In this document: positions 8,518 through 53,660 of the stretch, one piece after another
Layout: each line of letters begins with the position of its first letter
Numbering within the stretch: position 1 is the stretch's first letter
Assembly: GCA_014859445.1 (NCBI GenBank)
Contig: JACUUC010000014.1
Coordinates: 1 to 64,000, forward strand
DNA: 64,000 nt
DNA from: Bacterioplanes sp.
GTDB lineage: Bacteria > Pseudomonadota > Gammaproteobacteria > Pseudomonadales > Oceanobacteraceae
Direction: 5' to 3'
Program-made: the position numbers and the translations under genes
Notes under the pieces: generated by a model
The model's input: only the letters and a program-made list of their open reading frames with translations
What the model was told of the DNA's origin: nothing
Database searches by the model: none

Positions 8518-8745
8518 TCACTCGCCGTCAATACATCCGTGTAGGCTCGAGTGCGCCATCCCTGGCGCACACGGTGACGTACGACTCAACGGAAGTACGG
8601 CTTGATGACATCGCTACCTTAGAGCTTGCAACTGTATAAGATCACGGAGGGTGACGTGCGACTCAACGGAATTACGGCTTGATGAGATCGCAGCTTGATA
8701 AGATCGTAGGTGATGTGACGTTCGACTGAACAGAAGTCGGCTGAA
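8518..8745. repeat. REP-like hairpin core with inverted copies of the left repeats
   Basis: In the centre is a hairpin, GTGCGCC and GGCGCAC around ATCCCT (8551-8570), inside the wording ACATCCGTGTAGGCTCG. To its right, inverted copies of the left units appear near 8573 and 8650 (GTGACGT then CGACTCAACGGAA then TACGGCTTGATGA) and a decayed one near 8708. Together with 8371-8517 this forms a large imperfect inverted array. Hairpins with a central CATCC are common dispersed intergenic elements in gammaproteobacteria, so this is probably one member of a genome-wide repeat family. Confidence 0.65.
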
Positions 8746-49115: not shown

Positions 49116-49601
49116 TTAATCTTTAAAGTTCTTAAACGCCAGTGGCATTTCGATGGATTCGTCGTTACGAAGCAATGCCATCACCGCCTGCAGATCATCT
49201 CGGCTTTTACCTTGGATACGAACCGTGTCACCTTGCACAGCGGCTTGTACTTTCAATTTGCTGTCTTTGATTTTTTTCACCATTTTACGAGCCAAATCAG
49301 CGTCAATACCTTGTCGCATGGTGGCATTTACTTTGACAATTTTGCCCGAACCTTGTGGCGCACTGTATTCCAAACAACTGACTTTAATGCCTCGTTTGGT
49401 CATGGCGCCGGTTAACATGGATTTCATCTGCTCAATTTGGAAATCGTGATTGGCGGCCATGGTAACGACTAGATCTTTCATTTCAAAACTGGCATCGACA
49501 CCACGAAAATCAAAACGCGTACTCAGTTCGCGGTTAGCCTGATCCACGGCATTACTGGCTTCGTGTTTATCAACTTCCGACACCACATCGAATGATGGCA
49601 T
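49116..49601 (-). CDS. yajQ: YajQ-family nucleotide-binding protein
   Basis: 161 residues: MPSFDVVSEVDKHEASNAVDQ at the start, then STRFDFRGVDASFE and RIQGKSRDDLQAVMALLR at the end. Members bind nucleotides, including c-di-GMP in some species. Length is normal. AGGAG precedes the ATG. Confidence 0.93.
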   Translation of the reverse strand: MPSFDVVSEVDKHEASNAVDQANRELSTRFDFRGVDASFEMKDLVVTMAANHDFQIEQMKSMLTGAMTKRGIKVSCLEYSAPQGSGKIVKVNATMRQGIDADLARKMVKKIKDSKLKVQAAVQGDTVRIQGKSRDDLQAVMALLRNDESIEMPLAFKNFKD

Positions 49602-49688
49602 GATATATTTCTCCTATACTCTGTAAGGCTGCATATATACCGCGAGCCATGCGGAAATGCAAAACTGGCAGAGGCACCAAATTAGGCT

Positions 49689-50654
49689 ATGGTAATGATT
49701 ATGGAAACCAAAATGACACTTCACGGCCCTGGGGTCTATTACTTTGCCATTGGCGGTGTAAAAGAAAGTCCCATTTTCAACTCCGTATTTGAATTCGAAT
49801 ACGGTGTTAATGCGCTGGCCAGCCTACCCAGTACACGCTTAATTGCTTTTCATCTTGAATCCGATCACTTGCACTGCGTGCTACGTTGCGAGCGTGATTG
49901 GTCTGAAGTGTTCGACGATTTGCAACGCGCTTTCGAAAATTTGCATGAGCGCTGTTGGGGCAAGCGTAAAGCGATTTTATCCGATCAAGGTACCGTTCTT
50001 CTGATTGATGAACAGGCCTATCTTGCAGACTTAGTGCTGGAGCTGCATCGCTTACCCGTCATTCAAAAACGTGTGGTTGATGCCTCTCTGTATCCTTGGA
50101 GCAGCGATCATCTGTATCGACTAAAAAATCCACCTACGTGGATCGAAACCGACGCGGCACTCAACCTACTATGCAATACACGTCACAATCGTCACGAACG
50201 TTATGCCGCCGTCATGGCACAACCCGCCAAAGCCGTACTTGATCTCCAGCAAGGCAATCACGCCCTGTATCAAGCACTGGCACGAGACACGTTTATTGAC
50301 CGTCATTTAAAGCGATCGGCTCTGGTGCAATCACAGCGCAGTCGAGAAGACAGTCGCCGACTGTTTGACGATGCCTGTGATCTTGTCGCCGATTGCTTTT
50401 CAATCAACAAAGTCGACTTACAAGACAGCAGTCAACGCCGTCAATTCAACCGGCTTATGCCGGTTGTGGTGTATTTATTGCGTGATCGCGGTCTGCATTA
50501 TGATGACATCACGCGTTTGGTGGGCGAGGACGAAGATCGACTGCAACTGTGGTTACGCAATCTGAAAGCGGATCATGCGCCTGCGTTACTCAATCGCATC
50601 ATGCAACGTTGGTCCCCCACTCCTATGGCCATGAGCGAACTGATCACAGAATGA
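49689..50654 (+). CDS. RAYT-like Y1 transposase homologue, probably catalytically dead
   Basis: 321 residues. The N-terminal region follows REP-associated tyrosine transposases: the His-x-His metal pair is present (SDHLHCVL, residues 60 and 62) and the YPWSS motif also. In place of the usual YxHxNPV the sequence is ELHRLPV (Glu118), so the nucleophilic tyrosine is replaced. A DnaA-C-terminal-like helical region (about 235-300, with LMPVVVYLLRDRGLHYDDITRLVGED) may bind DNA. It could be a domesticated DNA-binding protein. The start is uncertain, with ATG codons at 49689, 49698 and 49701. Its stop overlaps the next gene start by four bases. Confidence 0.75.
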   Translation: MVMIMETKMTLHGPGVYYFAIGGVKESPIFNSVFEFEYGVNALASLPSTRLIAFHLESDHLHCVLRCERDWSEVFDDLQRAFENLHERCWGKRKAILSDQGTVLLIDEQAYLADLVLELHRLPVIQKRVVDASLYPWSSDHLYRLKNPPTWIETDAALNLLCNTRHNRHERYAAVMAQPAKAVLDLQQGNHALYQALARDTFIDRHLKRSALVQSQRSREDSRRLFDDACDLVADCFSINKVDLQDSSQRRQFNRLMPVVVYLLRDRGLHYDDITRLVGEDEDRLQLWLRNLKADHAPALLNRIMQRWSPTPMAMSELITE

Positions 50655-51538
50655 CGTCGCACATCGGCATCTTAGGTATGGGAGCCATCGGTTCACTGAT
50701 GGCATTTCATTGGCGTGAGTTGACAACGTTTGCCGTTCAACGCGATGGCACCCCATGCCGACGAACCCTAATCGACCAAAACAACGCCGCTCATCCATTA
50801 ACGCTGCCTGCATGGCAGGGAGAAGACCTCGATTGGTTAGTCGTGTGCACCAAAGCGGCGGATACCCTATCGGCATTGCAAACACTGGCCCCAGCGCTAG
50901 GCGCTATTGAACGCATTTTACTCATTCAAAACGGCATGGGGCAGCAGCAACAGGTTGCAAACTGGCTGGCCAAACAAAAACATCAGCCTGAATTATGGGT
51001 TGGTAGTAGCACAGAAGGTGCGTATCGTCAGACCGACAACGTCGTTGTGTATGCTGGCGTCGGACAAACCGTGATTGGCTCTTGGCATGACCAACAGCAA
51101 GCGGATGATATCGCGCTCCCTAACACCATGCTCGTGGATAACATGCATGAACGTCTCATCAGCAAGTTGGCGGTGAATGCCGTTATTAATCCGCTTACGG
51201 CGCATTATCGCTGTCGCAATGGCGAGCTACTCAGCAATGAGCAACGCGCGTCACACCTACAGCAATTAGCAGAAGAGGTCGAGGCACTCTATCTTGCATT
51301 GGCTTGGCCACTGCCTTCGCCTTGGTTGCCATACGTTCGCGGCATTGCCCACGCCACCGCCCATAATCGGTCCTCTACATTACAAGACATTCTGGCGGGG
51401 CGCCCCCACGAACTTTCGTACATCAATGGCTATCTTCAGACGTTTGCTCAACAGCAAGACATCGCCATGCCCAAACACGATGAACTAATCGCTGTGCTTT
51501 CGATAAAGCCACTTGACCTATCCGACCACAACCACTAA
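50651..51538 (+). CDS. 2-dehydropantoate 2-reductase (PanE-like)
   Basis: 295 residues from the ATG at 50651, which overlaps the previous stop (ATGA); an upstream in-frame start at 50549 is unlikely. N-terminal Rossmann motif GILGMGAIGSLMAFHW, then VCTKAADTL and LLIQNGMG (about 95-102), and the C-terminal SKLAVNAVINPLTA with the catalytic Lys. Reduces ketopantoate in the coenzyme A pathway in PanE; paralogues with other substrates exist. Confidence 0.82.
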   Translation: MTSHIGILGMGAIGSLMAFHWRELTTFAVQRDGTPCRRTLIDQNNAAHPLTLPAWQGEDLDWLVVCTKAADTLSALQTLAPALGAIERILLIQNGMGQQQQVANWLAKQKHQPELWVGSSTEGAYRQTDNVVVYAGVGQTVIGSWHDQQQADDIALPNTMLVDNMHERLISKLAVNAVINPLTAHYRCRNGELLSNEQRASHLQQLAEEVEALYLALAWPLPSPWLPYVRGIAHATAHNRSSTLQDILAGRPHELSYINGYLQTFAQQQDIAMPKHDELIAVLSIKPLDLSDHNH

Positions 51539-51551
51539 CCTGCGCGACTTC

Positions 51552-51755
51552 AGGTGCCCCGCTGCATTCAGCAAAGGGGTTAAACGGGAAGATTGGTGCT
51601 GCGCAATAGCGCAAATGCCAACGCTGCCCCCGCAACGGTGATCGACCACAACTGCTAACCAAATGCCACTGTACTAACGAAGTATGGGAAGGCGTTAGCA
51701 GCGATTTTGGCTTTATGCCGTAATCAGGTCGTCAGCCCGGATACCGGCCTGAATA
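51552..51755 (+). ncRNA. Cobalamin riboswitch
   Basis: Conserved blocks in order: GGTGCCCC...AAAGGGGTTAAACGGGAA, then GGTG, the GCTGCCCCCGCAACGGTGA core, and the B12 box GTCAGCCCGGATACCGGCCTG. It lies before btuB and a cobalamin adenosyltransferase, matching its known regulation: B12 binding turns the genes off. The 115 bases between it and btuB hold no clear terminator, so control may be at translation. Confidence 0.93.
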
Positions 51756-51869
51756 AAATCATGCAACGTATTGCGGTGGGCGATGCGGGTATAAGCTACA
51801 AATCTATTTATTTCTGGCTTACTCCCAACCTTTTGTCTGCCGAGTGGTATTTCACCAATCGGACAACTT

Positions 51870-53660
51870 ATGAACAAATTAACTTTAACCTCTATATCTT
51901 TATTATCAATTCATTCGTCGATAGTCTCAGCCGAACCACAAGAGCTGTCTCGACAGGTAGTTGTCGCTGATCGCGTAGCAGGCTCAATAACTCACTCTGC
52001 TCAAGTTATGATTATTGAGAGAGAAGAAATTGAGCGCTCTGGTGCGCAATCAATTGTCGACCTTTTAAAGCATAAAGAAGGCATCCAATTCTCATCAAAT
52101 GGTGGAATAGCCAGCACAACCAATTTGTATATCAATGGATTGGACAGTAAGCAAATTGTTTTTCTAATTAACGGCATTCGTACTGGCTCTGCGACAACAG
52201 GCGGCTCACCATTCCAACTGATACCCGTTGATCAAATTGAGCGAATTGAAATTTTCAAAGGATCGCGAGCAACTATTTATGGTGCCAATGCACAAGGCGG
52301 GGTTATTAATATCATCACTCGTCACTCAGGCCAATCAAATAGTGTCAGCGCCAGCATTAGCTCACAATCAACTCGCGAAGTTTCACTAAGAGTCGGTCAA
52401 CATAGAGACAACTGGAGTAGTTATCTAAATCTTACTCATAACGAATCGGATGGATATAATATTCGCACCGAAGGAGATGATGATAAAGATGGTTTTCGAC
52501 GCAATGGAATCAGCTCAGGAGCAAGCCTCCAAATATCTCCCGAACATCGGGCAGGCTTTGATCTACAAGCAAACATCGGTTTCAATGAATATGACAACAC
52601 TTTTGGCCTTGATGACCGCCAAGATACAGACAATAGAACTTACACTGCGTGGTATGAATTCGTCAGCGAGCGTTTAAATATTAACCTACAAACAGGCAGT
52701 GCATGGGATAGAAGTTGGAACTTTGAAGATGGTCAACCGCGTAGAACAGGATCGCATTTCGCGACTAAACAGCAGAATACCTTGATTAACTCGGCCTTCC
52801 ATTACAATTTTTCCCATACCGTTCTATTCGGTTTAGATCATAAAAAGTTGGATGTATCTAGTAGCAGTGCCAAATACGATGAAACTGACATTAGTAATCA
52901 GGGAGCATATATCGGTTACCGATTCACTAATGAATATGCCATTCTTGAAGCCAGTTCACGCTATGATAACAACGAGCAATTTGGTGATTTTTGGTCTTTC
53001 GACCTAAGCGCAATACTCACCTTTAATAATGGCGATTCTATGGGTTTTGGGCATTCCACAGGCTTCAGAGCACCAACGTTTAATGAGTTATACTTTCCTA
53101 ATTTTGGGAATGAAGATCTGAAAGTTGAACAGTCTAAAATCTGGAGCGCACATTACACAGCGCCTTGGGCCACCGGATTATTCCGAGTAAATGGCCAAAG
53201 AGCGATTATTGACAACCAAATTGTTTCCAATCCTAATAATTCTTGGAAACCAGATAACATTAGTGAGAGTGCCATAAAGTCCATATCGGCAAGCATTGAG
53301 CAAAACATTACTAACGAGTTATCCATCCGATTAGTACAAGATTGGTTAAATGCTAAAGACTTAACTACTGGTCAACAATTACTTCGTCGCTCACCTCGCT
53401 CCAGTAAAGGTGTACTTAGTTGGACGAATGCATCATGGTATGCAGAGGTCGATGCGTTATATCGTTCAGAAAGCAAAGACGTTAATAATTCCACAAATCC
53501 TAGCTATGTAGTTTTTAGTACCATCATTCGATACCAACTAAATCCGAAAGGGTCTATTGGTCTTCGTATTGATAATGTTGGAGATCGTGATTATGAAACA
53601 ATTGCGGGATATCCTGAGCAAGGTCGTCTTGTTCAACTGTCTGGTCGCTATCATTTCTAA
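51870..53660 (+). CDS. btuB: BtuB, TonB-dependent cobalamin receptor
   Basis: 596 residues. Signal peptide (MNKLTLTSISLLSIHSSIVSA), a TonB-box-like QVVVADR, the plug domain (about 40-150, LYINGLDSKQIVFLINGIR and RIEIFKGSRATIYGANAQGGVINI), and the 22-strand barrel ending in GRYHF with a C-terminal Phe. Similar in length to E. coli BtuB (about 590-615). Controlled by the riboswitch. Its codon use is clearly more AT-rich than that of its neighbours. Confidence 0.93.
   Translation: MNKLTLTSISLLSIHSSIVSAEPQELSRQVVVADRVAGSITHSAQVMIIEREEIERSGAQSIVDLLKHKEGIQFSSNGGIASTTNLYINGLDSKQIVFLINGIRTGSATTGGSPFQLIPVDQIERIEIFKGSRATIYGANAQGGVINIITRHSGQSNSVSASISSQSTREVSLRVGQHRDNWSSYLNLTHNESDGYNIRTEGDDDKDGFRRNGISSGASLQISPEHRAGFDLQANIGFNEYDNTFGLDDRQDTDNRTYTAWYEFVSERLNINLQTGSAWDRSWNFEDGQPRRTGSHFATKQQNTLINSAFHYNFSHTVLFGLDHKKLDVSSSSAKYDETDISNQGAYIGYRFTNEYAILEASSRYDNNEQFGDFWSFDLSAILTFNNGDSMGFGHSTGFRAPTFNELYFPNFGNEDLKVEQSKIWSAHYTAPWATGLFRVNGQRAIIDNQIVSNPNNSWKPDNISESAIKSISASIEQNITNELSIRLVQDWLNAKDLTTGQQLLRRSPRSSKGVLSWTNASWYAEVDALYRSESKDVNNSTNPSYVVFSTIIRYQLNPKGSIGLRIDNVGDRDYETIAGYPEQGRLVQLSGRYHF

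Follow-up and report, generated by a model that had tools for sequence, protein, structure and literature searches.

A former DnaA-tailed transposase conserved beside panE in marine bacteria has lost its catalytic residues and probably has a new job

Results

Gene order and domain architecture

The DNA analysed here, referred to below as the window, is a stretch of 64,000 nucleotides of Bacterioplanes sp. (contig JACUUC010000014.1, positions 1 to 64,000). It carries an open reading frame (ORF) between a divergent yajQ and panE, with the following features:

49689 to 50654, + strand: dead TnpA_REP (RAYT)-like gene with a DnaA domain IV-like tail, 321 amino acids (from ORF, fold and homology)
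49701 to 50249, + strand: N-terminal TnpA_REP/HUH fold, residues 5-187 (4er8_A), acidic, orthologue median -5
49866 to 49874, + strand: H60-L61-H62, resembling the HUH pair, with both His present in no orthologue but the window
50040 to 50042, + strand: Glu118 codon at the nucleophile position, by alignment
50052 to 50054, + strand: Leu122 codon in the place of the metal-ligand Asn (NP motif), by alignment
50091 to 50105, + strand: Y135-P-W-S-S139, of which W137-S138-S139 never varies among the 26 close orthologues
50343 to 50618, + strand: C-terminal DnaA domain IV-like helical domain, residues ~219-310, acidic and with an altered recognition-helix region (fold and sequence comparison)
50651 to 51538, + strand: panE/apbA, 2-dehydropantoate 2-reductase (TIGR00745)
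49116 to 49601, - strand: yajQ (DUF520), the divergent neighbour (PF04461, E 3.8e-60)
49602 to 49700, + strand: region separating yajQ from the gene, with promoter-like elements

A METKMT motif (METKMTLHG) conserved among the orthologues places the likely true start at the ATG at 49701. At the other end, the stop codon TGA of the gene overlaps the likely ATG of panE at 50651, in good agreement with the initial annotation of this DNA, which had described the gene as coupled to a PanE-like reductase. PanE scores 175.4 bits against TIGR00745 (cut-off 141.35), and panE, a gene of vitamin B5 synthesis, is the only one of the genome above this cut-off. Reading the yajQ/gene intergenic regions of 30 loci by eye, we saw a TATA-like stretch on the yajQ side, a CTGGCA stretch before the gene and no shared palindromic operator; a promoter scan returned 2 sites against 2.7 expected. 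Downstream of panE, the window contains a cobalamin riboswitch (RF00174, 90.7 bits, 51535-51766) upstream of an ORF at 51870-53660 which, from reading its sequence by eye, we take to encode a TonB-receptor-like protein.

We compared an AlphaFold2 model of the protein (pLDDT 87.1) with known folds. Residues 5-187 match TnpA_REP (4er8_A: Z 14.0, 153 residues aligned, rmsd 2.9), and the C-terminal part matches DnaA domain IV (3pvp_B, a DNA complex: Z 12.2, residues 224-312; 1j1v_A: Z 12.1, residues 224-310); Thg1-like chains that also appeared in the fold search (Z ~6 to 7) were set aside as reflecting a common arrangement. The ORF is thereby predicted to keep both folds, TnpA_REP followed by DnaA domain IV. 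The DnaA-like C-terminal part had been proposed earlier and is supported by structure with Z ~12, though Pfam gave only Bac_DnaA_C for the window protein, at an E-value of 0.055, below the cut-off. The AAA+ domain III of DnaA has no match in the window protein, the N-terminal part of which is the Y1 fold. Y1_Tnp (PF01797) does not match the window protein and is absent from the families listed at E ≤ 1 for 29 aligned members. What supports the RAYT assignment, and with it the earlier label of the protein as RAYT-like, is therefore profile and fold comparison, and not the Pfam family. PADLOC returned no match, and PHROGs a single one (E 0.075).

Ancestry

In a profile-profile alignment with hhalign, the gene family and 12 intact DnaA-tailed Y1 proteins run collinearly across 283 columns (E 5.9e-25, probability 99.6); the alignment with tailless RAYT-like proteins reaches 98.0% and E 2.6e-13. 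The intact relatives L092 and L128 carry both Y1_Tnp and Bac_DnaA_C over their curated cut-offs, and Bac_DnaA_C reaches E 2.1e-7, just below its cut-off, in the panE-linked relative L090. Judged by these alignments, the ORF is a descendant of a DnaA-tailed TnpA_Y1 of the RAYT subclass 2.1 type.

In their account of this group, Quentin et al. 2018 (PMC6006769) place DnaA-tailed TnpA_REP proteins in subclass 2.1.2, without REP sequences nearby. The ORF resembles subclass 2.1, mainly 2.1.2, as characterised there, in its two-domain order, full-length alignment, long C-terminal HTH, lack of REP nearby and WSS motif, but differs from it in the loss of HUH, Tyr, Asn and the basic face and in occupying a single fixed locus. 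As the initial annotation had stated, there are no flanking REP copies: we found no REP-like repeat near the gene, and repeat families with three or more copies are likewise missing from its surroundings. E. coli TnpA_REP (4er8, a chain of 165 residues; PMC8266576) is alike in the fold of the N-terminal 187 residues, whereas the protein described here has no catalytic site, no REPtron and an extra DnaA-like tail. DnaA domain IV (3pvp, 1j1v) is alike in the fold of residues 224-312 and in Arg251; unlike DnaA, which has an RDHTT signature in the recognition helix, the protein has ED-acidic forms at this place, its domain is acidic and it lacks AAA+.

No intact DnaA-tailed relative was found in this genome, where the only PF01797 match is L067 (G000:C8:236-478), an intact-looking Y1 protein of 153 amino acids with PDHVHW, RYVVANPLRAG and no DnaA tail.

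Loss of the active site across orthologues

The ORF, H60-L61-H62, Y135-P-W-S-S139 and Glu118 at the nucleophile place, all named in the initial annotation, are confirmed in the window. Glu118, within ELHRLPV, aligns with the Tyr of YIHLNPV, and it falls on the catalytic Tyr in the alignment with the intact DnaA-tailed Y1 proteins as well. We followed these positions through 26 close orthologues, which represent one family and seven genera, and through 34 panE-linked members, i.e. these 26 together with five from genus g4 and three from other families (g4 has nine genomes with a match, five of which, L027-L030 and L089, were read in detail).

The HLH metal pair, described earlier as kept, is there in the window but is not a family trait: both His are present in 1/26 close orthologues, which is the window itself, and in 1/34 panE-linked members, and the site reads QMQ, RMQ, EIQ, EIH, SVR etc. 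in the other orthologues. Conservation of the Glu is likewise not borne out, position 118 being Gln in 16, Glu in five, Thr in four and His in one of the 26 close orthologues. None of them has Tyr there, which agrees with the proposal of a transposase-derived protein that has lost its nucleophile; the catalytic Tyr is found in three of the 34 panE-linked members (L029, L089 and L090), all distant and none with both HUH His. The Asn of the NP motif, which the section of PMC6006769 on E. coli TnpA_REP gives as a metal ligand, is lost in 26/26 close orthologues and present in 0/34 panE-linked members, and positions 117, 118 and 122 of the catalytic helix are all changed. On the alignments, loss of the active site is a trait of the family, unlike HLH and Glu118.

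Other parts of the protein are kept. Scaffold residues G23, L43, L112, P123, V129, W137, S138, S139 and Y172 are retained, W71, W90, D140, R144 and R165 are new invariants in the clade, and 31 columns, including Tyr17, Tyr143 and Tyr172, are invariant among 25 aligned sequences. D70, H120, R251, W288 and H296 also count among the invariant residues. Quentin et al. suggested, where they discuss the serine motif adjoining the catalytic Tyr, a possible contact with the replication fork (PMC6006769). Taking this motif to be the WSS region, we note that its invariance fits a protein contact, yet it is common to intact enzymes.

Persistence at the yajQ/panE locus

A match to the gene is present in 35 of the 44 family genomes (28 of the 36 good ones), with an open frame in every one of the matches listed. 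Both yajQ and panE are its neighbours in 26/26 close orthologues and in 19/19 named loci (Thalassolituus, Oceanobacter, Oleispira, Bacterioplanes and others), the latter taken from an alignment-based contig search and mostly in genomes already in the main set; a single-protein search of genome contigs found no relative. Across three families, panE lies directly downstream of the gene in 33 of the 34 panE-linked members examined, bearing out the long-term residence suggested earlier; in the remaining one, L090, which belongs to another family, one short opposite ORF lies between the two. At L091 and L093, also from other families, the gene sits between a response-regulator ORF and panE; this response-regulator-like ORF, upstream of the gene, is at L091:466-1455, between the gene and yajQ, and at 422-1426 on the reverse strand in L093. 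At another 29 loci, from the class at large, neither panE nor yajQ was matched next to the gene (the class-level comparison takes the best-scoring 29 loci, plus the window, of 156 genomes with a match and is biased toward the profile because the best-scoring loci were taken). In a tree made by a quick method with 15 of the 26 close orthologues, 23 panE-linked rows split from 32 other relatives with an SH-aLRT of 98, L090, L091 and L093 being on long branches.

Among the gene-less genomes, yajQ and panE adjoin with no clear gene between them in 8/8 with a readable slot. Repeated loss is the simplest reading because sister species in g5, g6 and g7 carry the gene, and since it is absent from some genomes, its job would be useful but dispensable. 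Values of dN/dS lie between 0 and 0.146 in nine of the 12 pairs with a value and are saturated in the other three, and dN/dS of the gene is lower than that of panE in 8/8 pairs where both are finite; in both comparisons the pairs share genomes and are not independent. The gene is single-copy, vertically inherited and under purifying selection, which is how a domesticated transposase is recognised.

Charge reversal on the DNA-binding faces

In both domains, charge has gone from basic to acidic. For residues 5-187, the median net charge is -5 in the 26 orthologues (lowest -9, highest 0), +7.5 in the 22 DnaA-tailed relatives that are intact (1 to 13) and +9.5 in the 10 that are partly degenerate, and the C-terminal medians are -3 (n=26), +5 (n=22) and +9 (n=10), respectively; note that net charge is an indirect sign and that some acidic proteins bind DNA. 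Thirteen positions carry a basic residue in 80% or more of the intact set and are taken as ancestrally basic; only three of them remain so in half or more (≥13) of the 26 orthologues. Positions 7, 10, 18 and 22, which fall within strand 1 or ahead of it, are basic in 20 or more of the 22 intact relatives but in only 7, 0, 0 and 9 of the 26 here; the structural account in PMC8266576 gives the strand 1 region of TnpA_REP as a DNA contact.

Ten partly degenerate DnaA-tailed relatives from elsewhere in the class (L134, L136, L138-L141, L143, L146, L148 and L153) have lost at least one catalytic residue and are still basic. Since these lie outside the clade, loss of catalytic residues alone does not strip the charge, and catalysis seems to have been lost repeatedly. 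In the DnaA-like domain, Arg250 is kept in 25/26 and Arg251, which aligns with an Arg of M. tuberculosis DnaA, in 26/26 close orthologues, and R-D of the recognition helix has mostly become E-D.

The 8551-8570 hairpin and other degenerate Y1 proteins

The hairpin at 8551-8570, put forward earlier as a possible ligand, is part of a low-copy repeat in which a TGTAGG box adjoins the stem. At 8534-8570 of the window, the repeat consists of a TGTAGGCTCG box beside a GTGCGCCA-N-TGGCGCAC hairpin. The hairpin core occurs at five places in the genome (window 8534-8570; G000:C28:32697, 32868 and 134000; G000:C62:29041), and variants of the box were found in 20 of the 44 family genomes, 19 of the 35 with the gene and one of the nine without it (Fisher p 0.027). 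Without genus g5, the counts become 19/33 and 1/4 (p 0.32), and 16 of the 35 gene-bearing genomes yielded no copy of the repeat. The association of repeat and gene is weak and confounded by genus, and there is no good case for this hairpin as the ligand.

A second dead RAYT adjoins hcp in Thalassolituus relatives (L068:1417-2175; L066, L069, L070 and L074). Its NHVH has become NAVQ or NAIQ and the Asn of NP has become Lys; identity to the L068 protein is ~84-86% in L066, L069 and L074 and 99.6% in L070, and its flanks carry genes for a PP2C phosphatase and for Hcp (type VI secretion) in 5/5 loci. It is similar to the panE-linked gene in its lost catalytic residues and kept synteny but differs in lacking a DnaA tail, in keeping Tyr, in matching PF01797 and in its PP2C and Hcp neighbours. 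L105, also from the order, is a further degenerate Y1-like protein, with Ser, Phe and Asp in place of the HUH residues and Tyr.

Discussion

The gene described here, a former transposase and now a well conserved single gene in marine bacteria, probably has a new job. What that job is we infer from sequence: we give about an even chance to an exapted, non-catalytic descendant of a DnaA-tailed TnpA_Y1 that acts mainly through protein contacts and is made together with PanE. In the comparisons, the gene keeps a fixed, inherited place upstream of panE, evolves under purifying selection and retains both folds, having lost its nucleophile and metal site along with most of the basic face for nucleic acids. 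The resulting protein presumably cannot cut DNA, the REP-type hairpin binding of its ancestors would be gone, and it may serve mainly as a non-enzymatic protein-interaction module, a scaffold or regulator co-made with PanE. As the basic face is lost, hairpin binding is weakened and a protein-interaction role is favoured, a choice made largely by exclusion. Speaking against it are both His of the HUH pair in the window, the Tyr kept by three distant panE-linked members and the retention of Arg250 and Arg251 in the DnaA-like domain.

Double-stranded-DNA binding is the main rival, since the DnaA-like fold is intact and these two arginines persist in it. The protein could, with some though clearly lower probability, be a transcription factor whose DnaA-like domain sits on a double-stranded operator, e.g. 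in the yajQ/gene intergenic region, with the dead RAYT domain as a dimerisation or ligand part. The fold of DnaA domain IV is one that binds double-stranded DNA, matched here at Z 12.2 to a DNA complex, and the divergent yajQ adjoins the gene in all 26 close orthologues; however, the C-terminal part is acidic (median -3 against +5 in the 22 intact relatives), R-D of the recognition helix is mostly E-D, no common palindrome is apparent by eye in the intergenic regions of 30 loci, and in eight genomes yajQ and panE persist as neighbours although the gene is missing. We consider it unlikely that the protein still binds hairpins or single-stranded DNA without cleavage, perhaps at the 8551-8570 hairpin. 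The REP-hairpin-binding fold is kept (4er8, Z 14.0), and the five genomic copies of the hairpin core and the enrichment of the repeat in gene-bearing genomes (p 0.027) would suit such a binder, but basic positions are lost, 7, 10, 18 and 22 in the DNA-contact region among them, the repeat is missing from 16/35 gene-bearing genomes and the association fades once g5 is left out.

Decay of a functionless transposase gene, to which the lost catalytic residues, the absence from 9/44 family genomes and the empty slot in 8/8 readable ones might point, is very improbable: it is contradicted by purifying selection (dN/dS 0 to 0.146), by the open frame in every listed match, by 31 invariant columns among 25 sequences and by the same position in several families. 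We find it scarcely credible that the protein is a still-active nuclease working through the HLH of the window and another tyrosine or acid. H60 and H62 are there in the window, and Tyr17, Tyr143 and Tyr172 are invariant in 25 sequences; against this, both His are confined to the window, the Asn ligand is lost in 26/26, and 117, 118 and 122 are changed. Least probable of all, an acidic copy could act as a decoy, a negative regulator by mimicry that blocks an active TnpA_Y1 or DnaA. Both folds are kept with their charge reversed and the intact tailless Y1 protein L067 is encoded elsewhere in the genome, but L067 is the only PF01797 match and no DnaA-tailed intact relative was found there. More boldly, and with little probability, an old transposase-initiator fusion may have become a DNA-free regulator that retains both DNA-binding folds but whose surfaces were recharged to dock proteins, possibly those of replication or Y1 proteins, as a decoy; its fixation next to panE would then predate the divergence of several families of the order.

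The observation from which this work started is real in part, and its interpretation as a transposase turned into a DNA-binding or hairpin-binding protein was half right: hairpin binding is disfavoured here, as the basic face of the intact relatives is gone and the 8551-8570 repeat is not found in 16 of the 35 gene-bearing genomes. RAYTs are often called domesticated, mostly as intact enzymes. The panE-linked proteins form a clade that has lost both catalysis and the basic face for DNA, yet the gene is selected at one locus. For their likely-active sample, Quentin et al. took proteins with both the HuH and Y motifs and treated missing motifs as a hint of non-functional proteins, according to their description of that sample (PMC6006769). 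Because Pfam Y1_Tnp misses such proteins and this survey, in that description, set motif-less members aside, they may be overlooked more widely. The use of the RAYT fold without cutting thereby becomes a testable question in culturable marine bacteria.
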